The notes beneath the pieces were generated by a model. That model was not told the DNA's origin and did not search any database. It saw only the letters and a list, made by a program, of their open reading frames with translations. This document shows, piece after piece, positions 1-18,334 of a stretch of 64,000 nucleotides of DNA (its first letter is position 1; each line of letters starts with the position of its first letter). The DNA comes from Actinomadura bangladeshensis. Its GTDB lineage: Bacteria; Actinomycetota; Actinomycetes; Streptosporangiales; Streptosporangiaceae. The translations under genes and the position numbers were made by a program. Where the stretch lies: assembly GCF_004348335.1 (NCBI RefSeq), contig NZ_SMJW01000007.1:1-64000 (forward strand), written 5' to 3'.

Positions 1-1208
1 GGGTCGCCCGCCGCCCGGCCCGCCACGAGCACCTCGCCCTCGTCCGGCTCCACCAGGCCCGCGATGAGCGCCGCCAGCGTCGACTTGCCGATCCCGCTGG
101 GCCCCACCACCGCCAGGTGGTCGCCCTGCGGCACGACGAGGTCGAGGTCCTCGATGACCGGCCGCGCGCCGTACCCGAACGTCACGCCGCGCAGCTCGAC
201 GGCGGGGGCCCCGTCGACGGGCGCGGCCCGCACCGGCTCGGGCGCGTCCGGCGCGCTCGTCTCCATGATGCGGCCGAGCGTCACCGCCAGCCGCAGCCCG
301 CTGCCGCCCATGCCCTGCACCAGCGTCCGCAGCGCGGGCTGCAGCCCGTGCAGCACGTACGTCAGCGCGCCGATCACCGTCCCCGGCGTGGCGCCGCGCC
401 GCATCAGCCACGGCGCCGCCGCGAGGACGAGCAGCAGCGGCAGCCACCCGCTCACCGCCAGCGCCACGGCCCGCACCGCCGCGAACCGGGCCACCGCCCG
501 CCCGGCCGCCGCCTGCGCCTCCACCGCCGCGCCGAGTTCGGCCGCCAGCCGGTCCTCGCCGCCGCACGCGGCCACGTCCCGCAGGCCCTCCGCGAGCGCG
601 GTCGTCCGCTCCGCGATGCCCTCCTCGCCGACCACGAGCGCCCGCTGCCGGACGGCAGCCGCCCCGAACACGGCGCCGAACAGGAGCAGCCCCGCCAGCA
701 GCGGCGGCACCACCAGGACGGCCACCTCCGGCATCATCGTCAGCAGCCCGAGCAGCGCCGCCCCGGCCGAGAAGACGAACCCGCGCGCGACCACGAGCAG
801 CCCCCCGAACGTGTCGCGGACGATCTCCACCTGGTGCGTGAGCCGCGCCACCGCGCCGCCGTCGGGCCGCCCCCGCAGCGACCGGTGCAGCGCCCCGGCC
901 GCGACGCGCCGGACGAGGTCGTCCCGGAACGGCTCCACGATCGCCGCCAGCGCCGGATACAGCCGCCGGCTCCCGAACGCGCCCGCGAAGGCGGATGCCG
1001 CCAGCACAGCGAGCCACACCGCCGCCTCGCGCGCCCGTCCCGTCCGGAACGCGTCCGTCGCCTCCCCGACGGCCCGGCCGAACACCGCGGTGGGGACGAC
1101 CTCGACGACCGACCACGCGCACGCCCGCCCGACCGCGCGCGGCCGGGCCCGGACGGCCTCCCCGACCGTCCTCCAGAGGACGCCCGCAGCCTCCCGCCTG
1201 CCCTTCAC
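1..1208 (-). CDS. ABC exporter half (membrane + ATPase), partial; RamB/AmfA-like
   Basis: Membrane-spanning half of an ABC exporter with a C-terminal nucleotide-binding domain; the 3' end lies beyond the left edge of the window. About 402 residues are visible, with several hydrophobic segments in the first 280 and a canonical Walker A, GPSGIGKST, near residue 370. The GTG start at 1208 overlaps the stop of the upstream exporter half (GTGA), so the two are translationally coupled. It is the last visible gene of the lanthipeptide operon (synthetase, precursor, two exporter halves), the order of ramCSAB/amfTSBA. The inferred role is export of the modified peptide as a heterodimer with the neighbouring half. 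This subunit carries the intact ATP-binding lysine that its partner lacks. The precise family assignment rests on gene order. Confidence 0.88.
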   Translation of the reverse strand, partial: MKGRREAAGVLWRTVGEAVRARPRAVGRACAWSVVEVVPTAVFGRAVGEATDAFRTGRAREAAVWLAVLAASAFAGAFGSRRLYPALAAIVEPFRDDLVRRVAAGALHRSLRGRPDGGAVARLTHQVEIVRDTFGGLLVVARGFVFSAGAALLGLLTMMPEVAVLVVPPLLAGLLLFGAVFGAAAVRQRALVVGEEGIAERTTALAEGLRDVAACGGEDRLAAELGAAVEAQAAAGRAVARFAAVRAVALAVSGWLPLLLVLAAAPWLMRRGATPGTVIGALTYVLHGLQPALRTLVQGMGGSGLRLAVTLGRIMETSAPDAPEPVRAAPVDGAPAVELRGVTFGYGARPVIEDLDLVVPQGDHLAVVGPSGIGKSTLAALIAGLVEPDEGEVLVAGRAAGD

Positions 1209-2956
1209 GGCGTCCCCTCCACGAGCTCCGATCCCTCGCCGGCCGCGGCGGCGCCGCCCTCGGGGGGCTCGGCGTTCTCCGCGGCGAAGACGGCCCGGTA
1301 GCCGGGGTCCTGCCAGAGCGTCGTGTGGGGCGCCAGGGCGCGGAGGCGGCCGCCGTCCAGCCAGGCGACCAGGTCCGTGCAGGCGGCGGTCGAGGCCCGG
1401 TGGGCGATGATCAGGCGGGTGATGCCGGCGAAGCGGGTCAGGACCGCGTCGGTGATCTCCAGTTCGGTGACCGTGTCGAGGCTGGAGGTGGCGTCGTCCA
1501 GGATGAGGACGCGGCCGGCGTGCGCGAAGGCCCGGGCCAGGCCCATGCGCTGCAGTTCGCCGCCCGACATCGGCGCGTCGGCGAGCGGCGTGCCGTAGCC
1601 GCCGGGCAGGCGGCGGATGAAGCCGTCGGCGCGGGCCGCCCGCGCCGCCTCGGCCAGGCGGGCGTCCGGCGGGCGGGCCGGGCCGAACGCGAGTGCGTCG
1701 CGGACGGTCGCGCCGAACAGGGCGGGGCGGGCGAAGGCGTAGCCGATCTCGCGGCGGAGCGCGGTGCGGGTGAGGCGGGGGAGCGGCGTCCCGTCGAGCA
1801 GGACCTCGCCCTCGTCGGGGTCGGCCAGGCGCCCGGCCAGCGCGGCCAGTTCGGAGGTGCCGGAACCGGAGCGGCCCACCACGGCGACGGCCAGGCCGCC
1901 GGGAACGGCCAGGTCGAGGCCGCGCAGCGCGCCCAGCGCCGTGACGCCGCGGAACTCCAGCCGGCCGGGGCCGGGCGGGGCATCGGCCGAACCGTGCGCG
2001 GGGACGGGCTGCGCGAGGATCCCGGCGGCGCGGCGGGCGCCCGCGCGGGCGCGGCCGAGGCGGAGGACCTGGGTGAGGACGGGCCCGAACCCGGCGGCGA
2101 GCCCCGCATACTGGACGGTCGCGACCAGCTCGCCCGGCGTGATGCGGCCGGCCGCCAGCTCCGTCCCGGCGACGCCGACCGCCGCCACCTGGAGCAGGAG
2201 CAGCGCGAGCAGGCCGCGGGCGGCGACCCCGCCCTGCACCCGCCACATCGTCTCGCCCTCGGCGCGCAGGCCGGGCAGGGGCGAGAGGATCCGCGCCGCC
2301 TCGCGCCCGGCGGTGCCGGCGGCGGCGATCGTGCGGGCGCCGCCGAGCGCCTCGGCGAGGCGGCCCGCGATCGTTCCCTGCACGTCCAGGTAGCGGGTCG
2401 CGGACGCGGTGATGTCGCGGACGAACGCGCGCATCAGCAGCGCCACCGCGGGCAGCGCGACCGCGATCGCGGCGGCGGTGCGCCAGTCGATGAGGCAGAG
2501 GGCGGCGAGGGCGCCGGCGGCGGGCAGCAGCCCGGCGGCGGCCTCCGGCGCGGCGGCGGGCGCGACCCCCGCCTCGGCGGCGCCGCCGACCGTCCGCCCC
2601 GCCACGTCGCCGGGCGGCATGCGCAGGGCCGGCCCGACCGCGAGGACGTGCCGGACCAGGGTGTGCCGCAGCCAGGCCGTCGCCCGCGCGGCGGCGCTGC
2701 CGGCCGCCAGCTCCGACAGCACCTCGGCGGCGGCGGACACGGCGACGAGCGCGGCGCACGGCCACAGCGCGGCCGCCGCCGGGGGGCCGCCGGGCGGCAC
2801 GGCGTCGATGGCGCGGGCCAGCGCGAACGGCAGCAGCACGGCCGCCGCCGCGTCGGCGGCCGCGGCCGCCGCGACGAGCGCCGTCCAGCCGCGGGCGCGC
2901 CCGGCGGCGCGCAGCAGCAGCCGGTTCGGGCCGGCCGGCGCGGGTCCTGCGGTCAT
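1205..2956 (-). CDS. ABC exporter half with degenerate ATP site; RamA/AmfB-like
   Basis: Transmembrane plus ATPase half of an ABC exporter, about 583 residues. The N-terminal half is hydrophobic (ABC membrane domain) and the ATPase domain begins near residue 340. Its Walker A reads GRSGSGTSE: the nucleotide-binding lysine is Thr and the following Thr is Glu. Walker B ends LILDDATSS, with Asp where the catalytic Glu usually sits, while the signature MSGGELQ is kept. This is a degenerate site, as in heterodimeric exporters, so it should pair with the canonical half encoded directly downstream. I chose the ATG at 2956 because GGAGG lies 5 nt upstream; upstream in-frame ATGs at 2968 and 2983 lack a comparable ribosome site. 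The probable substrate is the lanthipeptide encoded at 3018-3125. Confidence 0.9.
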   Translation of the reverse strand: MTAGPAPAGPNRLLLRAAGRARGWTALVAAAAAADAAAAVLLPFALARAIDAVPPGGPPAAAALWPCAALVAVSAAAEVLSELAAGSAAARATAWLRHTLVRHVLAVGPALRMPPGDVAGRTVGGAAEAGVAPAAAPEAAAGLLPAAGALAALCLIDWRTAAAIAVALPAVALLMRAFVRDITASATRYLDVQGTIAGRLAEALGGARTIAAAGTAGREAARILSPLPGLRAEGETMWRVQGGVAARGLLALLLLQVAAVGVAGTELAAGRITPGELVATVQYAGLAAGFGPVLTQVLRLGRARAGARRAAGILAQPVPAHGSADAPPGPGRLEFRGVTALGALRGLDLAVPGGLAVAVVGRSGSGTSELAALAGRLADPDEGEVLLDGTPLPRLTRTALRREIGYAFARPALFGATVRDALAFGPARPPDARLAEAARAARADGFIRRLPGGYGTPLADAPMSGGELQRMGLARAFAHAGRVLILDDATSSLDTVTELEITDAVLTRFAGITRLIIAHRASTAACTDLVAWLDGGRLRALAPHTTLWQDPGYRAVFAAENAEPPEGGAAAAGEGSELVEGTP

Positions 2957-2974
2957 GATCGCCTCCATGACGAG

Positions 2975-3009
2975 GGCGGCCATGGCCCCACGGGGAGACC
3001 ATGGCCGCC
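2975..3009 (-). terminator. Hairpin between precursor gene and exporter genes
   Basis: Perfect 11-bp inverted repeat, GGCGGCCATGG / CCATGGCCGCC, with a 13-nt spacer that contains a further CCCC/GGGG pairing. It begins 8 bp after the precursor stop and ends before the preferred exporter start at 2956. No T-run follows. An internal hairpin of this kind can reduce read-through or protect the upstream mRNA so that the peptide is made in excess over the transporter; that role is inferred. Confidence 0.55.
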
Positions 3010-3017
3010 GCCGGCCG

Positions 3018-3125
3018 TCACAGGCAGATGGTGATGCTGTGCGAGCTGTGGCAGAGCAGGCTGAGGCTGCTGTTGCCGCCGCCGCCGTTCTCGGTCACCA
3101 TTCCCTGCAGGTCGAGAAGCGCCAT
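3018..3125 (-). CDS. Class III lanthipeptide precursor (SapB/AmfS-like), 35 residues
   Basis: Small peptide gene between the lanthionine synthetase and the exporters. The leader contains LLDLQ (residues 3-7), matching the conserved LxLQ recognition motif of class III leaders and the LFDLQ of SapB/AmfS precursors. The core has two complete Ser-x2-Ser-x(2-3)-Cys motifs: Ser19-Ser22-Cys25 and Ser27-Ser30-Cys34, with Leu35 last. That is the two-ring pattern of SapB-type morphogens, with either labionin or lanthionine rings possible. Gly14-17 form a run before the core. The start is ATG at 3125, preceded by GAAGGA; this lies 6 bp after the synthetase stop. SapB-type peptides act as extracellular surfactants in aerial growth. 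The same role here is inferred from order and core pattern. Confidence 0.93.
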   Translation of the reverse strand: MALLDLQGMVTENGGGGNSSLSLLCHSSHSITICL

Positions 3126-3131
3126 GTTCCT

Positions 3132-5687
3132 TCACCCCCTTTCGGGCTGGATAGAGGTGGCCACCGCGGGGGTTCCCGCGAGGGGTCGGTGGGCCGTCCC
3201 GAAGAACGGCAGTCCGGCCGGTGCGCCGTGCAGGGCCGCGCCGAGGGCGAGCAGCACGCCGGCCGTGCCGGTCGCGAGGTCCATCGACAGCCGGTACATG
3301 TGCTCGCCCGGCATCGCCAGGCCGCCGCCGTAGGGGAGGGCGTGCCAGGCGAGGTCGCGGACGTGCCCCGCCGCGCGCGGGTCGTCCCGGTCGTGCCGGG
3401 CCAGGTAGAGGAGCATCCCGGCGCGTCCGCTGAACAGGCTGGGCTGCGCGTAGTAGCGGGACGTCGCCGCGATGCGGACGGCTCTGCGCGCGGTCTCGAA
3501 CTCCTCGTCCGGGCGGTGCGCCAGGTACTCGTCCAGGACGAGGCCGATGCCGACGCTGCCGCGGCCGAGGTAGGGGAGCACCCGGCTGCCCTGGTCGACG
3601 TGCAGGGCGCCGTTGCGGTCGGTGACGCAGGCGGCGAGGTCGCGGCGCAGCGCGGCGGCCGCGAGGTCGAGCAGCTCCGGGTCGCCGGTGCGCTCGTGGG
3701 CGCGGACGAACATCAGCGCGGCGCCGGCGCCGCCGTGCATGAGGCCGGGACGGGCGCTCGGCCCGCCGGACGCCCGGTCCGCGACGATCCCGGCGGCGCG
3801 GGAGGCCGCGTCGCGCAGGGACGTGTCGCCGGTCCGGTGCGCCAGGTCGTCCAGGACGAGCGCGAAGCCGGGCAGGCCGCCGTACAGGTCGTCGCCGAGG
3901 CGCTCCCACTTCTCGTTGAGGCAGTGGTGGACGGCCGTGAGCGCCGCGTCCATGCGGCCGAAGCGGGCGAGCACGTGGGCGGCGCCCATCAGCCCGTCGT
4001 AGAGGCCGAGCCCGGTGCCGCGCCGCGGATCGGCGGCGCGTGCGGCCAGCCACTCCTCGTGCGCCGGGAAGCGTCCCGCGCCGGTCGCATCCAGCGCGTA
4101 CAGGACGCCGGCGGCGCCGTGCGCCAGCCCGAGGGACGCGCCGGAGAACTGCTCCACATCGCCGGGAAACAGCCGGTCGGCGCGGTCCGGAGTCGCGCTG
4201 GCGAGGATGGCGCGCGACAGTGCCTCCCTGGCGCGCTCCCAGCCGGGCGGGTCGGGGACGAACTCGGGCGCGGGCGCCGGCGGGACGTCCCGCGCGATCT
4301 CGGCGACCGCCTCGTCCAGCCATGCCCGGGGCACCGGGAAGTTCGCGGCGACCATGTCGGCGAGCTGCCGCGCCTTGCCCCGGTCGAGCACGAACAGCGT
4401 GGTCAGCGGGACGAACAGGGCGAGCCGCAGGCAGGCCAGGCTGTAGCGGTCGACGTCGGCGCCGCGCCGGTCCGGCGGGGCGAGGAACGCCGGGTTGGCG
4501 AGGGTCTGCCGGCCGCCGGCGGACGCGGGCGCCGCCGTCTCGAAGTCGATCAGCGCGACCGAGTCGTCCGGGCGGACCATCACGTTGAACATGTGCAGGT
4601 CGTTGAAGACGACGCCGCGCTCGTGGACGGCGGCGACGACGCGTTCCACCCCGGCGTGGACGCGCCGCGCCCACGCCGTGTACTCGGCCGTCCGGGCGGA
4701 ATCCGGTTCGGGATCGAGCATCGGATGGCGTTCGGCGAAGAACGTGTTGAGCGTGCGCCCCTCGATGAACTCCTGGACGAGAAAATGGTGCTCACCGAGC
4801 GCGAACCAGTCCAGCGCGGCGGGAACGCCGTCGATCCCGTCGAGCTTCTTGAGAATGTCGCGTTCCCGTTCGAGCCGGGTGACCGCGTCCGCGCCGTCGG
4901 CGGCGAGGCCCGCGTAAGGCCGCCCTTCCTTCAGGACGACTTTCGCTCCCGTCCGGGTGTCGACCGCCTCGTAGACTCCGCCGCCGTTGGAGAAATGCAG
5001 GGCCTTCTCGATCCGGTACGGCAGATCGGATGTCGTCGTGGCGGCGCGCGCCTTCACATGGGGTTCGAGGCAGGCCGGCAGGCTCACCCATTCGGGGACG
5101 GAGAACACCGGATTGCGGCGGTCGGGCACCAGTTCGCCGGCGCCGTTCTCCAGCGCGGCCACCAGCCTGCCGTTCTCGTCCAGGCAGCGGCGCTCGGCGA
5201 ACCCGCCGTACCGTACGTGCAGCGGCCCCGCGCCGATACGCAGGTCACTGAGGATGTACGGGCCGGGAAGGCCGTCCAGCACGGCGCCGAGGCCGTCCAG
5301 GACGCGCTCCAGTTCGCGCTCGTCCGCGGGGTAGACGGTGACGAGTTTCCCGCTCGCGCCGCGCGGCGCGTACTTGGCGTTCCGCATCCGCAGTGTGCCC
5401 GGGCCGCGCAGGTGCTTGAACTCGATGCCGGCCGCGACGCAGTACTCCCACGTCCCGGCGAGCACCTTTCCGGCGCTTTCCGCGCATCCGGTGACGTGCA
5501 CTTTCCAGCCCTGCGCCGGAGTGCGCTGAACCGGCGGGACGTACACGATCCATTCGTCTCCGAAGACCTGTTCCCAGCCGTCCGGGAGAGTGCGGCCGGC
5601 GATGTCGAAATCGGTGCGGCGGGTGACCGGGGGAGCGTCGTAGAAGACCTCGTCGGCGAGGCAGTAAAGCTCGTACCCCTTGTCCAC
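3132..5687 (-). CDS. Class III lanthionine synthetase (LanKC; RamC/AmfT-like)
   Basis: Trifunctional enzyme of 851 residues that phosphorylates Ser/Thr of the precursor, eliminates phosphate and cyclises onto Cys. Residues 1-220 are the lyase region. The kinase domain follows: glycine loop NGGGVYE (234-240), VVLK with Lys253, FNDLHMFNVMV with catalytic Asp363 and Asn368, and LIDFE with Asp381. From about residue 500 there is a repeated G-x-x-G pattern (LAHGAAG, LYDGLMG, LYGGLPG, LMHGGAG, LFSGRAG, DLATGTAG) of the alpha/alpha-toroid cyclase, without obvious zinc ligands, as expected for class III. The GTG start at 5687 has GGAAGGGA upstream. It is the first gene of the operon; the promoter should lie in 5688-5848. 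A RamR-type activator was not found in this window. Confidence 0.95.
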   Translation of the reverse strand: MDKGYELYCLADEVFYDAPPVTRRTDFDIAGRTLPDGWEQVFGDEWIVYVPPVQRTPAQGWKVHVTGCAESAGKVLAGTWEYCVAAGIEFKHLRGPGTLRMRNAKYAPRGASGKLVTVYPADERELERVLDGLGAVLDGLPGPYILSDLRIGAGPLHVRYGGFAERRCLDENGRLVAALENGAGELVPDRRNPVFSVPEWVSLPACLEPHVKARAATTTSDLPYRIEKALHFSNGGGVYEAVDTRTGAKVVLKEGRPYAGLAADGADAVTRLERERDILKKLDGIDGVPAALDWFALGEHHFLVQEFIEGRTLNTFFAERHPMLDPEPDSARTAEYTAWARRVHAGVERVVAAVHERGVVFNDLHMFNVMVRPDDSVALIDFETAAPASAGGRQTLANPAFLAPPDRRGADVDRYSLACLRLALFVPLTTLFVLDRGKARQLADMVAANFPVPRAWLDEAVAEIARDVPPAPAPEFVPDPPGWERAREALSRAILASATPDRADRLFPGDVEQFSGASLGLAHGAAGVLYALDATGAGRFPAHEEWLAARAADPRRGTGLGLYDGLMGAAHVLARFGRMDAALTAVHHCLNEKWERLGDDLYGGLPGFALVLDDLAHRTGDTSLRDAASRAAGIVADRASGGPSARPGLMHGGAGAALMFVRAHERTGDPELLDLAAAALRRDLAACVTDRNGALHVDQGSRVLPYLGRGSVGIGLVLDEYLAHRPDEEFETARRAVRIAATSRYYAQPSLFSGRAGMLLYLARHDRDDPRAAGHVRDLAWHALPYGGGLAMPGEHMYRLSMDLATGTAGVLLALGAALHGAPAGLPFFGTAHRPLAGTPAVATSIQPERG

Positions 5688-5848
5688 GACCGCATTCCCT
5701 TCCGCATTGACCCGCCGTTGGCGCGCTCCGCAGAAAAGAATTGCAGGACCGCCGTGAGGCGGCTAGTAGCGGAAATAACGAATGACCCGTGAAGATGTAC
5801 CGGCCGCCCGCATGCGCCGGTCACCTGACCGTCGCGCGCGGCACGTAT

Positions 5849-5862
5849 TGAAACACGTTCTA
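5849..5862 (+). promoter_or_regulatory. KstR-like operator in a divergent promoter region
   Basis: TGAAACACGTTCTA fits the published KstR consensus TnnAACnnGTTnnA at every fixed position and sits about 50 bp upstream of the SDR start at 5915. KstR is the TetR-family repressor of the actinobacterial cholesterol catabolism regulon. The site suggests that the two downstream oxidoreductases belong to a steroid or CoA-ester regulon. The rest of the 5688-5914 interval separates two divergent genes and should also hold the lanthipeptide operon promoter, which I could not define. Confidence 0.5.
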
Positions 5863-5914
5863 CTTTCTGCGTAGGCTGTGCGGTCGGTGATGCGACGGCC
5901 CGGAGGTGACGCCG

Positions 5915-6700
5915 GTGATCTGGGATCGGTTCCGAATCGATGGCAGGGCGGCGGTCGTGACCGGCGCCGGCCGCGGCCTCGGCGCGGCCGCCGCGGTCGC
6001 GCTGGCGCAGGCCGGCGCCGACGTGGTGATCTCCGCCCGGACGCAGGAGCAGCTCCGCGAGGTCGCCGCCGAGATCGAGGCCGCCGGGCGGCGGGCGCTG
6101 GTCGTCCCCGCCGACCTCAGCGATCCCGACACCGCCGCCGAGCTGGCCGGACGCGCCGTCGAGGGCCTCGGCCGCCTCGACATCGTGGTGAACAACATGG
6201 GCGGCGCGATGCCGGCGCCCTTCATGGACACCGAGCCCCGGCACCTGGAGAAGGCGTTCCGGTTCAACGTCGCCACCGCGCACGCGCTGACCCGTGCCGC
6301 CGTCCCGCACCTGCTGGAGGCCGGCGGCAGCGTCGTCAACATCTCCTCCGCCGTGGGACGCATCGCCGGCCGCGGCTACCTCGCCTACGGCAGCGCCAAG
6401 GCCGCGCTCGCCCACTACACCCGGCTCGCCGCGTTCGACCTGGCGCCGCGGATCCGCGTCAACGCCATCGCCGTCGGCTCCATCGCGACGTCCGCGCTCG
6501 ACGTCGTCATGACCAGCGACGAGCTGCGCACCGAGATGGAGGGCAGCACGCCGCTGCGCCGCGTCGGCGACCCGGAGGACGTCGCCGCCGCCGTCCTCTA
6601 CCTCGCCTCGCCCGCCTCCGCCTACGTCACCGGCAGCCTGCTGCGGGTGGACGGCGGCATCGAGACGCCCAACCTCGACCTCCACCTGGAGGACCTGTGA
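5915..6700 (+). CDS. Short-chain dehydrogenase/reductase
   Basis: Classical SDR, about 261 residues. The N-terminal cofactor motif TGAGRGLG, the NNMGG element (NNAG-like), catalytic Ser in VNISSAVG, and YGSAK (Tyr-x3-Lys) are all present, and the C-terminus carries the usual [11 protein letters not shown]. It should oxidise or reduce a hydroxyl/keto substrate with NAD(P). Of two in-frame GTG codons (5906 and 5915), I prefer 5915 because the GGAGG at 5902-5906 is then 8 nt upstream. Its stop overlaps the start of the next gene (GTGA), so the two form an operon. A KstR-like site precedes it, so a role in steroid or side-chain degradation is plausible but unproven. The substrate cannot be read from sequence. 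Confidence 0.92.
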
Positions 6701-7761
6701 CCTACCGCGTCGTCACCTGGAGCACCGGCAACGTCGGCCGCCACGCCATCGCCGGCATCGACGCCCGCCCCGACCTGGAACTCGCCGGCGTCTGGACGTC
6801 CACCCCCGCCAAGGCCGGCAGGGACGCGGGCGACCTCGCGGGCCTCGGCCGCGACCTCGGCGTCACCGCCACCGGCGACGCGGACGCGCTGCTCGCGCTC
6901 CGCCCCGACTGCGTCGTCTACACCTCGATGGCGGACGTCCGGCTGATGGAGGCGATCGACGACCTGTGCCGCATCCTGCGCGCCGGCGTGAACGTCGTCT
7001 CCAGCAGCCCGGTGTTCCTGCAGTTCCCGGACGGCGTCGTCCCGCCCGAGATGTCGGAGCCCGTCCGGGAGGCCGCCGCCCGGGGCGGAGCGTCGATCTT
7101 CGTCAACGGGATCGACCCCGGATTCGCCAACGACGTGCTGCCGCTCGCCGTCACCGGCATCAGCGAGCGCATCGACCAGGTCCGCTGCATGGAGATCCTC
7201 AACTACGCGACCTACGACCAGGGCACGGTCCTGTTCGACATCATGGGCTTCGGCCGCCCCATGGACGAGACGCCGATGCTGCTGCAGCCCGGCGTCCTCA
7301 CCATGGCGTGGGGGAGCGTCGTCCGCCAGCTCGCCGCCGGCCTCGGCGTGGAGCTGGACGGGATCGACGAGCGGCACACCCGGCTGCCCGCCCCCGACAC
7401 GTTCGGCGTCTCCGCCGGGACGATCGAGAAGGGCACCGCCGCCGCGCTGCGCTTCGAGCTGCGCGGCATGCGCGGCGGCGAGGCCGTCATCGTCCTGGAG
7501 CACGTCACCCGGCTCCGCGACGACCTCGCCCCCGACTGGCCGCAGCCCGCCGGCGACGGCTGCTACCGCGTCGAGGTCCGCGGCGAGCCGAACTACACCG
7601 TCGACCTGCGGCTCCTCGGCACGGACGGCGACCACAACACCGCCGGGCTGAAGGCCACCGCGATGCGCCTGGTCAACGCCGTTCCCGCCGTCGTCCAGGC
7701 GCCGCCCGGCCTGCTCACCGCACTGGACCTGCCGCTGGTCCCGGGCCGCGGCCTGCTCTAG
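6697..7761 (+). CDS. NAD(P)-dependent oxidoreductase, DapB-N / amine-dehydrogenase-like family
   Basis: Protein of 354 residues that opens with [16 protein letters not shown], a Rossmann GxxGxxG-type nucleotide site, and continues as the dihydrodipicolinate-reductase-like family common in actinobacteria (related to native amine dehydrogenases). It is longer than true DapB and is not beside lysine genes, so a DapB role is unlikely. The GTG start at 6697 overlaps the SDR stop at 6698-6700, and GGAGG sits at 6688-6692. Co-transcription with the SDR behind a KstR-like operator suggests a shared catabolic pathway. Its stop TAG lies in the CTAG at 7758-7761, whose other strand ends the convergent nitroreductase gene. 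Confidence 0.85.
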
Positions 7762-8585
7762 AGGCCGAGCGCGTCGAGCGCCGGGACGAGCCGCTCCTCC
7801 TCCAGGTCGAGGTGCGCCTCCAGGGCGCCGGTGAGCCGGTCGACCTCGGCCAGCAGGGACGCGGGATCACCGGTGCCGAGGACGCGGCGCAGCTCGTCCA
7901 AGAGACGCTTCACCGTCTCGTGCTCGTCCCTCAGCCGCGCCAGGACCGGTGCCAGCTCCGGATGCCTGCGCTCCACGAGCGGGAACATCTGCTGGTCCTC
8001 GCCCATGTGGTGGTTGCCGAGCCCCTGGCACAGGGTCAGGCAGTTGATCCGCAGCTGCGCGCCGACCCCGGCCCCGGACGCCTCGACCTCCCCGCGGATC
8101 AGCCGCAGCTCCCGCCGGAACGCCTCGTGCACGGCGACGAGCATCGCGCTCGGCGACTCCGGCCCGCCGGGCGGCCCGGCCAGGACCGGGACGAGCGCGA
8201 CGACGGGCAGCGTCCGCCCGGACCCGACCTCGTACTCGGCCCACCCCGGGTCGGCCTCCGCGGCCCGCGCGAACGCGGCGTCGCGCTCACCGCCCGCCAG
8301 GACGACGGCGTCCGCCTCGTAGGTGAAGCCGCCGCTCTCGACCGTGACGCGCGGGTTCGCGACCAGGTTGCGGAACCACGCCGGGTCCTTCGGCGCGCCC
8401 CCGGCCGAGGCGATGACGAGGACGCGGCCGTCGCCGTCCGGCAGGTAGCCGAGCGGCGTGGTGCGCCGGGCGCCCGTCCGGGCCCCCGTCGTGGTCAGCA
8501 GGAGCAGCCGCCCGCCCTCGAACGGGCCGCCGACCCGCCCGCCGTTCGCGCGGAACTCCTCGATGACCTGCGTGTTGAAATCCAT
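7758..8585 (-). CDS. Deazaflavin (F420)-type nitroreductase fused to hemerythrin domain
   Basis: Two-domain protein of 275 residues. The N-terminal half (about 1-125) is the DDN-type split-beta-barrel nitroreductase/quinone reductase family: note RLLLLTTTGARTG, the PLGYLPDGDGRVLVIAS stretch and WFRNLVANPRVTVE. These proteins typically bind F420H2. The C-terminal half (about 140-275) is a hemerythrin HHE domain with metal-ligand candidates in CQGLGNHHMGEDQQMFP, DEHETVKR and LEAHLDLEEERL. The combination suggests a redox enzyme coupled to oxygen, NO or iron sensing. The ATG at 8585 has AGGAGA upstream; the longer upstream frame has no such site and atypical composition. A perfect inverted repeat (8617-8651) lies 31 bp before the start. 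Confidence 0.88.
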   Translation of the reverse strand: MDFNTQVIEEFRANGGRVGGPFEGGRLLLLTTTGARTGARRTTPLGYLPDGDGRVLVIASAGGAPKDPAWFRNLVANPRVTVESGGFTYEADAVVLAGGERDAAFARAAEADPGWAEYEVGSGRTLPVVALVPVLAGPPGGPESPSAMLVAVHEAFRRELRLIRGEVEASGAGVGAQLRINCLTLCQGLGNHHMGEDQQMFPLVERRHPELAPVLARLRDEHETVKRLLDELRRVLGTGDPASLLAEVDRLTGALEAHLDLEEERLVPALDALGL

Positions 8586-8616
8586 ATGTCTCCTGAGCTG
8601 TTTTCGGGCACGGCGA

Positions 8617-8651
8617 ATAAGCCACGGAAATGGCGCGCGGCCGTGGCTTAT
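8617..8651. promoter_or_regulatory. Perfect 11-bp inverted repeat upstream of the nitroreductase-hemerythrin gene
   Basis: ATAAGCCACGG and CCGTGGCTTAT are separated by 13 nt. The repeat lies 31 bp upstream of the start at 8585 and could be an operator or an mRNA hairpin. The remaining 8652-8896 interval, downstream of the LuxR-family gene, holds two copies of the palindrome GGCATGCC (around 8668-8692). I see no gene in it. Confidence 0.4.
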
Positions 8652-8896
8652 GGAATGGCGGTGAAGGGCATGCCGAAGGATGCGGGCATGCCCGATGACG
8701 TCACGCGATGCGTGTGGAGAGAAGAGAGGGAACGCGAGTGGAAAAGGCGGGCCGCGTGCCCGCCCCGGCCTCACTCGGAGGCCGGGAACCTCACTCGCTC
8801 ATGGCCCATGGCCGACCCGGCAGTCACGAATCGCAGATTACCCGCACCGCCAATGCAGTGCAAGATCACCGGCAATTCAGGCCGCACCGCGGTGGA

Positions 8897-11842
8897 TCAC
8901 AGTCCTTCGCGGTGGGCGAGGGCGGCGGCCTGGGTGCGGCTCGTCACGTTCAGCTTGGCGAGGATGTTGGAGACGTGGACGCTCGCCGTCTTCGGGGAGA
9001 TGAACAGGGCCGCGGCGATCTCGCGGTTGTTGCGCCCCTCCGCGACGAGCTTCAGGACCTCGCGTTCGCGGGCGGTGAGGGAGCCGAAGGGGCCGGACGG
9101 CGCGGACGCGCGGCGCCCGGGGTCCAGGCGGGCGCGGGCGCCGAGGGCGCGGAGCGCGGCGAGCAGCGGCCGCGCGTCCAGCCGCTCGGCGGTCTCCACG
9201 GCCCGGCGCCACTCCTGCGCGGCGGCCTCCCGGTCGCCGTTCTCGGCCAGCGCCTCCGCCAGCCGCCAGCGCGAGCGCGCCACCTCGTAGACGAATCCGC
9301 CGCCCGGGTCGCCGTAGGTGAACAGCTCGGCGGACTCGCGCCACAGTCCGGGGTCGTGGACGCCGTCCACGCGGCGGCGCTCGGCCTCGGCGCGGGCCAG
9401 CCACGCCCGCCCCTCGTGCCCGAGCCAGCGCCGGGGCTCGCCCTCGTAGGTGAAGTCGACCGCCTGCCGCGCCCGCCGCAGCAGCTCGTCGCCGGCCTCG
9501 GCCGCCCGCCGGACGGCGCCGGTGTCGCCGGCCGCGCGGGCCCGTGCCGCCAGCTCGGCATGGGCCCAGAGCCCGGTCGCGGCGATGCGGATGAAGGTCG
9601 CGCCGTCGCCGTAGAGCGTCTTCGCGATGCTGTCCACGTGTTCGAGCACGGCCTCCGGCTCGTCCCGCCACAGGGCGTGCTCGGCGGCGAGCCCCCGCGC
9701 GATGTAGTTGGCGAGCTGGTCCTCGTGCCACAGCGGCGCGAGCCAGCGCAGCCGCTCCTCCACGACCGGCAGCCCCCGGGCGACCTCGACGAACAGCGCG
9801 TACGCCGAGACCTGCGCCTCGGCGGGCCGGACGACCTGCAGCGGGAAGCCGGCCGCGAGCCGGTCGGCCTCCGCCCAGTCCCCGGTCGTGTAGCGGACGA
9901 GGTAGCGCAGCGTCCGGATGGCGGTTCCGAACATGCTCCACTCGACGCCGTTGTCCAGCGCGAACCGGACGCCCTCGTCGGTCGCCGCGGCGGCGCCCGC
10001 GAGGTCGCCGCGGTCGAACTTCGTCCGGGCGTACTGGAACCGGGCGCGCAGCGCCGCCTGCGAGCTGTCGCCGGCCGCGTCGGCCAGGTCGCGCGCCCGC
10101 CCGAACAGCTCGGCGACGCCGCTGTCGGCCTCGCGCGACTCCCGGTAGACGCCGAGCGTCACCAGTGCGGCCGCCTCGGCGCCCGGCGCCCCGGCGGCGC
10201 GGGCCTCCGCGACGGCCCGCTCCGCCATCGCGGGCATCTCGCCGTCGGGGTCCAGGTAGAGCAGCGTCCGGGCGTAGGTGGCGAGGGCCCAGGCGAGGTC
10301 GGCGGTGGGCGGGGCGGCGGGCAGCATCGTCACCGCCTCCCGCGCCATGACCCGGCCCTCCTCCAGCTCGTCGAGGTCGAGCATGTACGCCGCGAGGTGC
10401 TCGCGGATCACCGAGCCGAGGGACGCGTCCGCCGGGTCGGCGACGTCGATGAGCCGCCGCAGCCGGTGCGCGGCCCGCCGCACCTCGCCGGCCCGCGCGG
10501 ACGCCTGCGCCGCGGTCAGCGCCAGCCGGGCCCGGCCCGCGCCGGCGGCCTCCTCCGCTCCGGGGACGGCGTCCCACAGCTCCAGCGCCCGCTCGTAGTG
10601 CTCGAACGCCTCGGCGGGCGCGCCGAGCCGGTCGGCCTCCCGGCCCGCCCGGACCGACGCCGCGAACGCGGCCGGCAGGTCGTGCGCGGCGAGGCTGTGG
10701 TGGGCCAGCTCCGCCGCCGACCCCCGCGTCCCGGCCGGCAGGCCGGCGAGGAGGCGGGCGAAGTCGGCGTGCAGCCGGGTCCGCTCGCCCGGCAGCAGGT
10801 CGCCGTAGACGGCCTCGCGCAGCAGCGCGTGCCGGAAGGTGTACCCGGTCCCGTGCGGGACGAGCAGCTGGTGCGACACCACCTCGCGCAGTGCCTCGCC
10901 GACCGCCGCCTCGTCCAGCCCGGACACGCGGCGCACCAGCTCGTCGTCGATGCGGCGCCCCGCCACCGCGGCGACCCGCACCACCCGCTGCCCGCCGTCC
11001 GACAGCCGCTCCACCCGCGACAGCAGCAGGTCGGCGAGCCCGGACGGCAGCTCCGCCGCCCCGTCCCGCACCTGCGGGTCGGCCGAGTACAGCTCGCCGG
11101 CGTAGAACGGGTTGCCCTCCGAGCGCCGGTGCACCCGGTCCACGACCTCCGCCGTCACGGGCGCGGCGCCGCGCGACAGCTCCGCCAGGTACTCGGCGGT
11201 CTCGCCGGGGCCGAACGGCGGGACCTCGACGCCCGTCACGTTCGGCAGCCGCAGCAGCTCCGCCACCACCGGCCGCAGCGGATGCCGCCGGTGCAGGTCG
11301 TCCGACCGGTAGGTGCCGACGAGGCAGACCCGCTCGCGCTGCAGGACGCGGCTGAGGAACGTCAGCAGGTGCCGGGTCGACCGGTCGGCCCAGTGCAGGT
11401 CCTCCAGGACCAGCAGGACGGGCCGGTCCCGTCCGAGCTCGCCGAGCAGCCCCAGCACCGCCCCGAACAGCCGCTGCTGGCCCAGCTCCGACGCCGCGTC
11501 GGGGCCGCCGTCGCCGTCCGGCAGCAGGCCCCGCAGCACGGGACGGCCGTCGAGTGCGGCGCGGACCTCGTCCGCCTCGGGGCCGGCGGCCTGCGCGGCC
11601 GTCCACAGCGCGTCCGCGAGCGGCAGGTACGGCATGCTCTCGCCCAGCTCCGCGCACTGCCCGACGAGCACCGCGCAGCCCTTGCCGCGCGCGGCCCGCG
11701 TCAGCGCGGACACCAGGTGCGACTTCCCGACGCCCGCGTCGCCGCTGACCAGCACGACGCCCGCGCTGCCGGCGGCCGCCCGCTCCAGCGCGGCGGTCAG
11801 CTCCGCGAGCTCGGCCGCCCGGCCGATCAGCACCCTGCTCAT
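8897..11842 (-). CDS. LuxR-family regulator with AAA+ ATPase domain (LAL/MalT-like)
   Basis: Large ATP-binding regulator of 981 residues. The N-terminus ([14 protein letters not shown]) is the usual entry to an AAA ATPase module, followed by Walker [11 protein letters not shown] (near residue 33) and Walker [14 protein letters not shown] long helical TPR-like middle leads to a C-terminal LuxR helix-turn-helix ([18 protein letters not shown] through [13 protein letters not shown]). Such proteins are cytoplasmic, signal-dependent activators, often of secondary metabolism or sugar use. The ATG at 11842 begins directly with the conserved motif. It appears monocistronic: the next gene upstream is 115 bp away. 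Its target is unknown. Confidence 0.93.
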
Positions 11843-16761: not shown

Positions 16762-17606
16762 CCGGCCGGGGGAGCCGCCTCGTCGAACCAGTCGAGGAAC
16801 CGGGCGTCGCCGAACATCCGCGCCGTGTCGGCGGCGGACGGCGACCCCGCCCGCGGGTCGGCGCCCGCGTCCAGCAGGGCCCGCACCACCCCCGCCTCCT
16901 TCTTGAACACCGCGCCCGCGAGGGGCCGCTGGCCGCGGTCGTTCGCGCGCTCGGGGTCGGCGCCGCGCGCCGCCAGGGCCCGGACGGTCTCCGGGTGCCC
17001 GTGGTAGGCGGCGAGCATCAGCAGCGTGTCGCCCCGGTCGTTCGCCAGGTTCGCGGGGACCCCGGCGTCGACGTAGCCGACGAGCCGGCGGGTGTCGCCG
17101 GCCCGCGCCAGCTCGAACAGGCGGCCGGTGAACTCCTCGGCCTCCGGGTCGGCGCCGGCCGCGACCGGGACGCGGCTGTCGGCGGTGAGCAGCCCGCCGA
17201 GGCTGTCCTCGCCGTAGGTCAGCCGCTTCTCCAGCGAGACCAGCGCGCCGTCCTCGGGGAACGAGCGGAACCGCACGTCGTCCGCCAGCGACTGCATGAT
17301 CAGCAGACCGCGGCCGTGCTCGGCGGACAGCTCGGGCCGGGGGACGCGCTCGGCGTCGAACCCGGTGCCCGAGTCGATCACCTTGATCACGCAGCGGCAG
17401 TCCTGGATCGCGGCCCGCACCGTGTAGTCGGCGCCGTGCTCGGCATGCTTGATCACGTTGGTGCACGCCTCGGTCAGCATCATCTCGATGTCGTCGCGAA
17501 TGTGGTCCTCGACCCCGAGTGCGGTGAGCGCCGCGTCCAGGAGCCTCCGGGTCGCCGGGACGCTCGCGGCGTCCCGGGGGAGCTGGAGGTCCAGGCTGAT
17601 TTCCAC
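16758..17606 (-). CDS. Anti-sigma-kinase-type HATPase fused to ankyrin repeats
   Basis: Two-part protein of about 282 residues. Residues 1-130 are an RsbW/SpoIIAB-like Ser/Thr kinase ATPase of the HATPase_c_2 type: N-box EACTNVIKHAE, G1 DSGTGFD and G2 EHGRGL. The C-terminal part holds at least two clear ankyrin repeats (RGDTLLMLAAYHGHPETVRA and NDRGQRPLAGAVFKKEAGVV), with flanking partial ones. The frame is continuous, so the fusion is seen and not inferred. It may sense a partner protein through the ankyrins and act on an anti-anti-sigma factor. The GTG at 17606 is preceded by ACGGAG; the longer TTG-initiated frame to 17654 is less likely. Upstream at 45 bp lies the acyltransferase. Confidence 0.85.
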   Translation of the reverse strand: MEISLDLQLPRDAASVPATRRLLDAALTALGVEDHIRDDIEMMLTEACTNVIKHAEHGADYTVRAAIQDCRCVIKVIDSGTGFDAERVPRPELSAEHGRGLLIMQSLADDVRFRSFPEDGALVSLEKRLTYGEDSLGGLLTADSRVPVAAGADPEAEEFTGRLFELARAGDTRRLVGYVDAGVPANLANDRGDTLLMLAAYHGHPETVRALAARGADPERANDRGQRPLAGAVFKKEAGVVRALLDAGADPRAGSPSAADTARMFGDARFLDWFDEAAPPAG

Positions 17607-17650
17607 ATCATCTCCGTCCGTCCCCCTAAAACGTGCCCTTTCCGGCACGC

Positions 17651-18334
17651 TCAAACATCGGGGCGCGGCGCGTAGTCGTCCACGTACTCCTGTCCCGACA
17701 GGCCCTGGATCGCCTCCATGATCTCGTCGGTGACCCGGCGGGCCGCCTTCCCGCGCGGGACGCCGTCGTCGCGTCCGCGGAAGTCCATCGGCGGGCCGAT
17801 CCGCAGCCCGATCCGGCCCGGTACCGGGACGGCCCGCCCGCGCGGCTGCACCCGGTCGGTGCCGGTGATCGCGACCGGGACGACGGGCGCGCCGGTCCGC
17901 ATCGCCAGCCGGGCCACGCCCGTCCGGCCCCGGTAGAGGCGCCCGTCGGGGGAGCGGGTGCCCTCCGGGTGGATCGCGAACACGCCGCCGCGGTCCAGCA
18001 CGGCCGCCGAGGTGTCGAGCGCGTCGAGCGCCGCCCGCCCGCCGGACCGGTCGACCGCGATCGCGCCGACGCTGCGGAAGAACGTCGCGGTGGCGCGCCC
18101 CTTCATCCCGGCCCCGGTGAAGTACTCGTGCTTGCCGAGGAAGTGGACCCGCCGCGGCACGATCAGCGGCAGCACGAACGAATCGAGGAACGCCAGGTGG
18201 TTCGCGGCGAGGATCGCCGGGCCGATCCGCGGGACGTGCCGCAGACCGCTCACCCGGGGAAGGAAGGCGACGCGCATCGCGGGTCCGAGGACGACGTACT
18301 TCATCAGCGGATAGACAAGCCGTTCGGGATCCAT
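17651..18334 (-). CDS. 1-acyl-sn-glycerol-3-phosphate acyltransferase (PlsC) family
   Basis: Acyltransferase of about 227 residues. Motif I is NHLAFLD (N-H-x4-D), motif III is EGTRSPDGRLYRG, and a later VVPVAITGTDRV matches the conserved C-terminal block. It should transfer an acyl chain to lysophosphatidate or a related lysolipid at the membrane. The ATG at 18334 gives a normal-length N-terminus (MDPERLVYPLMKYVVL). The ribosome site there is weak, and a TTG at 18388 is a less likely alternative. It may be co-transcribed with the downstream HATPase-ankyrin gene (45-bp gap), although no functional link is obvious. Confidence 0.9.
   Translation of the reverse strand: MDPERLVYPLMKYVVLGPAMRVAFLPRVSGLRHVPRIGPAILAANHLAFLDSFVLPLIVPRRVHFLGKHEYFTGAGMKGRATATFFRSVGAIAVDRSGGRAALDALDTSAAVLDRGGVFAIHPEGTRSPDGRLYRGRTGVARLAMRTGAPVVPVAITGTDRVQPRGRAVPVPGRIGLRIGPPMDFRGRDDGVPRGKAARRVTDEIMEAIQGLSGQEYVDDYAPRPDV

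Follow-up and report, generated by a model that had tools for sequence, protein, structure and literature searches.

A probable ram/amf-type class III lanthipeptide operon in Actinomadura, with a highly conserved core and a covarying hairpin behind the precursor gene

Introduction

Does a 35-residue open reading frame (ORF) at the edge of an Actinomadura bangladeshensis contig encode a lanthipeptide of the SapB/AmfS type, and how new would such a peptide be? The ORF lies within the first 5,687 bases of a 64,000-nucleotide stretch of DNA (contig NZ_SMJW01000007.1, positions 1 to 64,000; hereafter the window). A sequence-only reading of these bases had proposed a SapB/AmfS-type class III lanthipeptide operon in ram/amf order, with a new precursor, a distinctive His-Ser-Ser-His linker and a precursor gene short enough to escape automatic annotation. 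Our analysis supports the operon, and we put the probability that this Actinomadura locus is an operon of the ram/amf type for a class III lanthipeptide, a further member of an established kind, at about 0.86. Its notable extras are a highly conserved core, a compact first ring unit and a covarying hairpin behind the precursor gene.

Results

Transcription of the locus runs on the minus strand from 5687 towards 1, and the ORF listing of the window gives, in that order, a LanKC synthetase, the precursor and two ATP-binding cassette (ABC) half-transporters. The class III lanthionine synthetase (LanKC, RamC/AmfT-like) occupies 3132..5687 on the minus strand and has 851 residues. It is followed on the same strand by the RamS/AmfS-type precursor gene (3018..3125, stop codon 3018-3020), which encodes the 35 residues MALLDLQGMVTENGGGGNSSLSLLCHSSHSITICL. 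ORF positions, family models and gene order agree with one another, and on these points the ram/amf assignment made from the letters stood up.

The precursor scored 44.7 bits against the Pfam model RamS PF19402 (cut-off 24.3) and 41.5 bits against the NCBIfam model NF033212 SapB_AmfS_lanti (cut-off 25), so the comparison with AmfS/RamS that the sequence-only reading had pointed to came out above both cut-offs. The LxLQ leader motif is present as MALLDLQ, the core begins at about Asn18, and a Shine-Dalgarno-like GGGGGTGAAGG lies just 5' of the gene. Numbering of the ring residues as Ser19/Ser22/Cys25 and Ser27/Ser30/Cys34 proved correct in the translated ORF. All six are invariant in 24/24 aligned precursors, a first set drawn from Actinomadura and same-genus genomes with the window counted. 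Median dN (nonsynonymous divergence) was 0.036, median dS (synonymous divergence) 0.30 and dN/dS 0.155, calculated from 219 of 231 pairs among 22 sequences (L065 and L066 left out; the 12 pairs beyond the dS limits dropped). The small ORF is a real gene under purifying selection. We give almost no credence to the idea that it is a chance ORF or a relic in a silent locus. Such silence would fit the lack of a sigma-70-like promoter in 1-6500, in a scan that covers that promoter type only, and it is opposed by the purifying selection, by a ribosome-binding sequence 5' of the precursors that were read, and by the conserved upstream block and covarying hairpin described below. For NSSLSLLCHSSHSITICL minus four waters we computed a monoisotopic mass of 1841.89 Da; forms with 1-4 extra N-terminal Gly are possible.

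For comparison we used the best 80 of 322 relatives found with LanKC, an uneven sample which, with the window, comprises a clade of 26 loci (window included) and 55 others. A precursor-like ORF with the leader motif lies downstream of LanKC in 81/81 loci; the leaders of L068-L071 and L080 read L-x-MQ and were found with a widened leader pattern. RamS-family genes are present in 40/65 genomes of the genus and in 105/200 genomes drawn from the family, and the RamS model found no match in 14 control genomes. One genome of another genus of the same family carries four consecutive RamS-type matches (G196:C116:191080-191750). The claim that the gene could be missed by automatic annotation probably fits the past better than the present: a 2020 survey found about 55% of class III precursors then unannotated (PMC7268733). 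Today this precursor is recognised by a curated NCBI model, and the SapB/AmfS family counts more than 4,000 sequences in NCBI annotation (PMC13380574).

All three domains of the LanKC enzymes of the SapB/AmfS (RamS) class III family were found in the synthetase: a RamC_N lyase (PF25816, 252 bits), a kinase (PF00069, with a DFE motif) and a LanC-like cyclase (PF05147, LANC_like). It scored 1082 bits against the NCBIfam class III model NF038151 (cut-off 575) and 373 against the class IV model (cut-off 650). In alignment, its zinc-ligand positions read PYLGRGSVG and LFSGRAG, where a class IV enzyme encoded elsewhere in this genome, on contig C131, reads PYWCHGAAG and QCHGLSG. Loss of the zinc ligands distinguishes class III cyclases (PMC10604976, PMC7296275); since YLGRG and LFSG replace YWCHG and QCHG, this class-defining loss is present in LanKC. 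Best-segment identity reaches 89-90% to the synthetases of A. latina, A. geliboluensis and A. formosensis. The class IV enzyme is a second synthetase of this genome, a LanL at 9025-11904 of C131 (L129; NF038150, 1107 bits), and two ABC-type ORFs lie near it (3367-6881).

The top solved-structure match to LanKC was PDB 7wj6, an isolated kinase domain deposited under the title 'Serine/threonine protein kinase' (434 bits; 74% identity over 255 residues). Its printed sequence matches one genome of our set (G140) at 100%, which we take to be Thermomonospora curvata. There the synthetase is followed by a RamS-family precursor (48.2 bits) with the core SSASLLLCDKFSAFSTLLCL, which differs from that of the window in its x3 first unit and its DKFSAFS linker. 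According to PMC10604976 the kinase domain of CurKC has been solved in isolation, and we infer that 7wj6 is this structure. Curvopeptin of Thermomonospora curvata is thus probably the nearest studied peptide, and CurKC probably the nearest solved synthetase.

The exporter and regulator genes complete the layout, in part on a second contig. The first exporter half (1205..2956, minus strand; RamA/RamB-like) matches PF00005 and PF00664. Its longest ORF begins at 2983, and we consider ATG 2956 the likelier start because GGAGG (2966-2962) sits five bases before it. The second half (1..1208, minus strand; PF00005, 42.1 bits) is incomplete. Base 1 of the window is base 1 of contig C587, in an assembly of 8.7 Mb and 609 contigs, and the operon is therefore truncated by the assembly. 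The tail is found on contig C6 (L151), which from base 3 encodes the remaining ABC ATPase domain and, after it on the opposite strand, a response regulator (C6:477-1091); its counterpart in the Actinomadura mexicana locus is 86% identical over 205 residues. Window and C6 together hold the two ABC halves and the RamR/AmfR-like regulator of a ram/amf locus, if C587 and C6 adjoin across the contig break with few codons lost between them, as we infer from gene order in relatives.

That order is regular. In 69 of the 80 relatives, the strand opposite to LanKC carries a homologue of the A. mexicana response regulator. A second ABC gene ends less than 1 kb from this regulator or overlaps it in 67 of these 69, and L095 and L119 gave none. 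The 11 loci that have no regulator all end within 4 kb after LanKC. Judged by sequence, the gene order of the relatives appears to match the ramCSAB/ramR and amfTSAB/amfR loci, whose layouts are named in PMC13380574. Where the second ABC gene meets the convergently transcribed regulator, the 3' ends overlap by the same length, 143 bases, in 15 of the 20 clade loci measured (L049-L073; stop-to-stop ORFs); three loci show a 131-base overlap, L069 has a 52-base gap and the value for L066 is 545. In L151 the overlap spans about 477-620.

We then come to the second question, the novelty of the peptide. When the 18-residue core was compared with 23 other same-genus precursors, eight were identical, seven had one difference, three had two and five had more. 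The exact core NSSLSLLCHSSHSITICL is also found in Actinoallomurus purpureus and A. spadix, whose LanKC proteins are 66.0% and 66.7% identical to that of the window. With 18 of 23 same-genus cores at two differences or fewer, and the exact core in two loci of another genus, the proposal of a new precursor could not be sustained: the precursor is hardly new, and the peptide is common to many close relatives. The two Actinoallomurus loci with the exact core, L068 and L070, combine it with a different leader, MTLLDMQGMESTPGGGGET, at 66-67% LanKC identity. We considered whether the precursor had recently moved into Actinoallomurus without its synthetase and set this aside: codon differences in the core number 3 and 4 of 18, fewer than the 35-36% at identical LanKC residues, but these counts are too small to carry the argument. 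Literature searches with the core or leader strings gave no match, and a search of titles and abstract starts for SapB-like peptides of Actinomadura found none.

The linker fared no better as a distinguishing mark. HSSH is present in 22/26 clade loci and missing also in L131, and it occurs outside the clade in Streptomyces L075 and in L144 and L145, from two relatives of G140. The window reads CHSSHS where Streptomyces loci L090, L109, L110, L113 and L116 read CGDSSLS, presumably the reading of SapB itself at this linker.

We examined how far the core follows its synthetase. For pairs at 60-70% LanKC identity, the median core identity is 89% within the clade, with 18/89 pairs identical, and 61% among the other loci, with 0/821 identical. 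At 70-80% the figures are 89% (21/133) and 72% (0/268), and at 80-90% they are 94% (20/94) and 86% (18/128); above 90% the median is 100% in clade and other loci alike. These pairs are non-independent and the counts are descriptive figures rather than a test. As a description, the clade core appears to be conserved beyond its synthetase. Against strict conservation, the cores of L065 and L066 are only 61% and 56% identical at 79% and 73% LanKC identity.

A core held more tightly than its enzyme would also fit a defined receptor, and so a lanthipeptide with another job (antimicrobial, antiviral or signalling) instead of a surfactant for aerial growth. Other activities are known among class III peptides, for example in the labyrinthopeptins. 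The labyrinthopeptins are named from Actinomadura namibiensis (PMC13380574). Among titles and abstract starts we found no study of the phenotype linked to a SapB-type peptide in Actinomadura. Nevertheless we consider another job unlikely, given that the RamS family, the ram order and the convergent response regulator are typical of morphogen loci (layout in PMC13380574).

Spacing within the first ring unit sets the clade apart from most other loci. The first unit is S-x2-S-x2-C in 26/26 clade loci and S-x2-S-x3-C in 53/55 others. Both clade units (spacing 2,3 in 26/26) fall within the range S-x2-S-x(2-5)-C quoted for class III cores (PMC11251773), and the narrower SxxSxxxC pair of the morphogen subgroup (PMC13380574) is matched by the second unit alone. 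A more specific proposal is that the Actinomadura/Actinoallomurus peptide is a distinct morphogen type, in which a compact first ring is joined to a nearly frozen CHSSHSxTxC whose His would bind metal or crosslink dehydrated Thr32. Noursin and its LanKC-Hbt resemble the window in having a class III synthetase and a core that contains His and Thr. Noursin has a one-Cys core, a crosslink from residue 8 (Dhb, dehydrobutyrine) to His11 and a synthetase of a separate LanKC subgroup (PMC10206099). Unlike noursin, the window core has both Cys25 and Cys34, and His26 and His29 both precede Thr32, so that the single Cys and the dehydrated Thr three residues before a His were not found. A noursin-type crosslink was rejected as the leading explanation on this reversed order and on the loss of HSSH in four of the 26 clade loci and in L131. 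In the crosslinked case this distinct type would contain a histidinobutyrine-like link in reversed order, and its maker would be a LanKC of RamC type, for which no such activity is known; we judge the distinct type highly improbable.

A hairpin (2975..3009, minus strand) separates the stop codon of the precursor from the start that we favour for the first ABC gene. It is a perfect inverted repeat with 11 perfect pairs, GGCGGCCATGG/CCATGGCCGCC, plus inner pairs and no T run, and by pattern it is unique in the genome. In an alignment of 23 Actinomadura and same-genus sequences, 22 of them distinct (L065 and L068-L071 left out), 98.8% of cells are paired and two-sided changes occur in 4/11 pairs, a number equalled in 3/500 shuffles; the covariation score of 0.164 was reached by 0/500 shuffles. 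In the slid controls pairing never exceeded 58.6% of cells, and none had two-sided changes in more than one pair. At least 10 stem pairs, G-T pairs allowed, can form no more than 100 bases from the precursor stop in 22/25 clade loci and 49/55 others (71/80; L065 omitted, as its contig ends), compared with 9/81 coding controls. The observed stem was reached by at most 1/100 shuffles in 21/25 clade loci and 41/55 others. Long stems stand at the same place in most non-clade ram-type loci, with a different sequence.

Several results run counter to a uniform element. The slid control at +3 scores 0.149 against 0.164, though it is 58.6% paired with zero two-sided changes. Further pair types are no higher than in shuffles (437/500 reach the count), and the folding energy is modest (z -2.0; 6/200 shuffles as good). 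The stem falls below 10 pairs in 3/25 clade loci and 6/55 others, and in L068-L071 (three Actinoallomurus and Actinomadura sp. DC4) stems of 7-10 pairs are matched by 3-56/100 shuffles.

An ordinary intrinsic terminator was rejected, as the hairpin has no T run and is absent among terminator-like sites. Across the 23 sequences with both conserved arm octamers, the distance between them ranges from 11 to 18 bases; this suits an RNA element better than a protein-bound DNA palindrome, and we prefer the former. RNA elements that favour precursor mRNA are known 3' of lantibiotic precursor genes. An Rfam scan of 1-9000 gave no family at the hairpin (elsewhere RF01668 at 22.8 bits, below its gathering score of 37), and a literature search in titles and abstract starts, covering few subscription papers, gave nothing relevant on a hairpin behind ramS or lantibiotic precursors. 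From its sequence and position the hairpin is probably an RNA element that raises precursor mRNA over transporter mRNA.

Upstream of the operon we found a conserved 39-base block (5763..5801, minus strand), 76-114 bases before the LanKC start and matched by the window at 38/39. It beats its own 30 shuffles in 26/26 clade loci, with a consensus derived from 13 of those same loci; 25 reach at least 23/39 and L066 has 22. A 22-base stretch of it has a single genome copy at three mismatches or fewer. Conservation and position make 5763-5801 a probable promoter region with a candidate regulator binding site. Among loci outside the clade, L076 and L085 match at 24/39. Many non-clade best matches, including those in Streptomyces, lie near -90 with a similar CACGG...TCGTGAC...GACTGT layout, which is possibly the same operator. 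Further upstream the window holds a large ORF at 8897-11842, whose apparent A. mexicana counterpart (L061:1751-4789) has AAA_16 and GerE (LuxR-type) domains.

Discussion

The locus shares with SapB/RamS (ramCSAB, ramR) and AmfS (amfTSAB, amfR) a LanKC, a RamS-family precursor with an LLDLQ leader, two ABC halves and a response regulator, and like them it has two S-x2-S-x(n)-C units. The window peptide differs from SapB and AmfS in its 35 residues and its compact first unit (x2, not x3). Durhapeptin of Streptomyces durhamensis resembles it in the five-gene layout and the LLDLQ leader; its core TGASTASLLSCVSAASVLLCL has two S-x2-S-x3-C units, unlike the window (PMC13380574). Durhapeptin induced aerial hyphae in some Streptomyces, and a Leu35->Thr change abolished its activity (PMC13380574). 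These results support a surface role and, with the unresponsive producer noted below, also caution against certainty.

We propose the following course of events. A RamR-like response regulator would act at 5763-5801 to switch on one mRNA that covers the synthetase, the precursor and both ABC halves. LanKC would bind the LLDLQ leader, phosphorylate Ser19, Ser22, Ser27 and Ser30 and then eliminate them, after which Cys25 and Cys34 would close two lanthionine or labionin rings in a zinc-free reaction. The ABC pair would export the peptide and an unlinked protease would cut off the leader. At the colony-air surface the amphipathic peptide may help aerial hyphae to rise. The hairpin may favour precursor mRNA by 3' end protection or by partial attenuation. 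Ring chemistry and the role in aerial growth are argued from homology to the known systems, and a SapB-like function is plausible.

Some points weigh against this picture. We looked for a leader protease among ten ORFs of a single relative and identified none; in L061, about 2 kb past the response regulator, an alpha-lytic-type serine protease with a prodomain is encoded at 16926-18092. No RamS match was found in 25/65 genus genomes, some of them incomplete; members of the genus can therefore do without the peptide. Since the first-unit spacing of the clade is unlike that of 53/55 others, the ring identity of SapB is not directly transferable. The upstream block exceeds 30 shuffles in 11/55 loci outside the clade, mostly by one match, which is near chance. 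Finally, the producer of durhapeptin was itself unresponsive to durhapeptin (PMC13380574).

Together the data indicate that Actinomadura and Actinoallomurus have widely retained a ram/amf system, and that in some pairs of loci the core stays constant while LanKC identity falls to about 66%. The conserved core means that a single peptide could be tested as a morphogen for a clade outside Streptomyces, and the hairpin offers a concrete site at which the ratio of peptide to transporter may be set.

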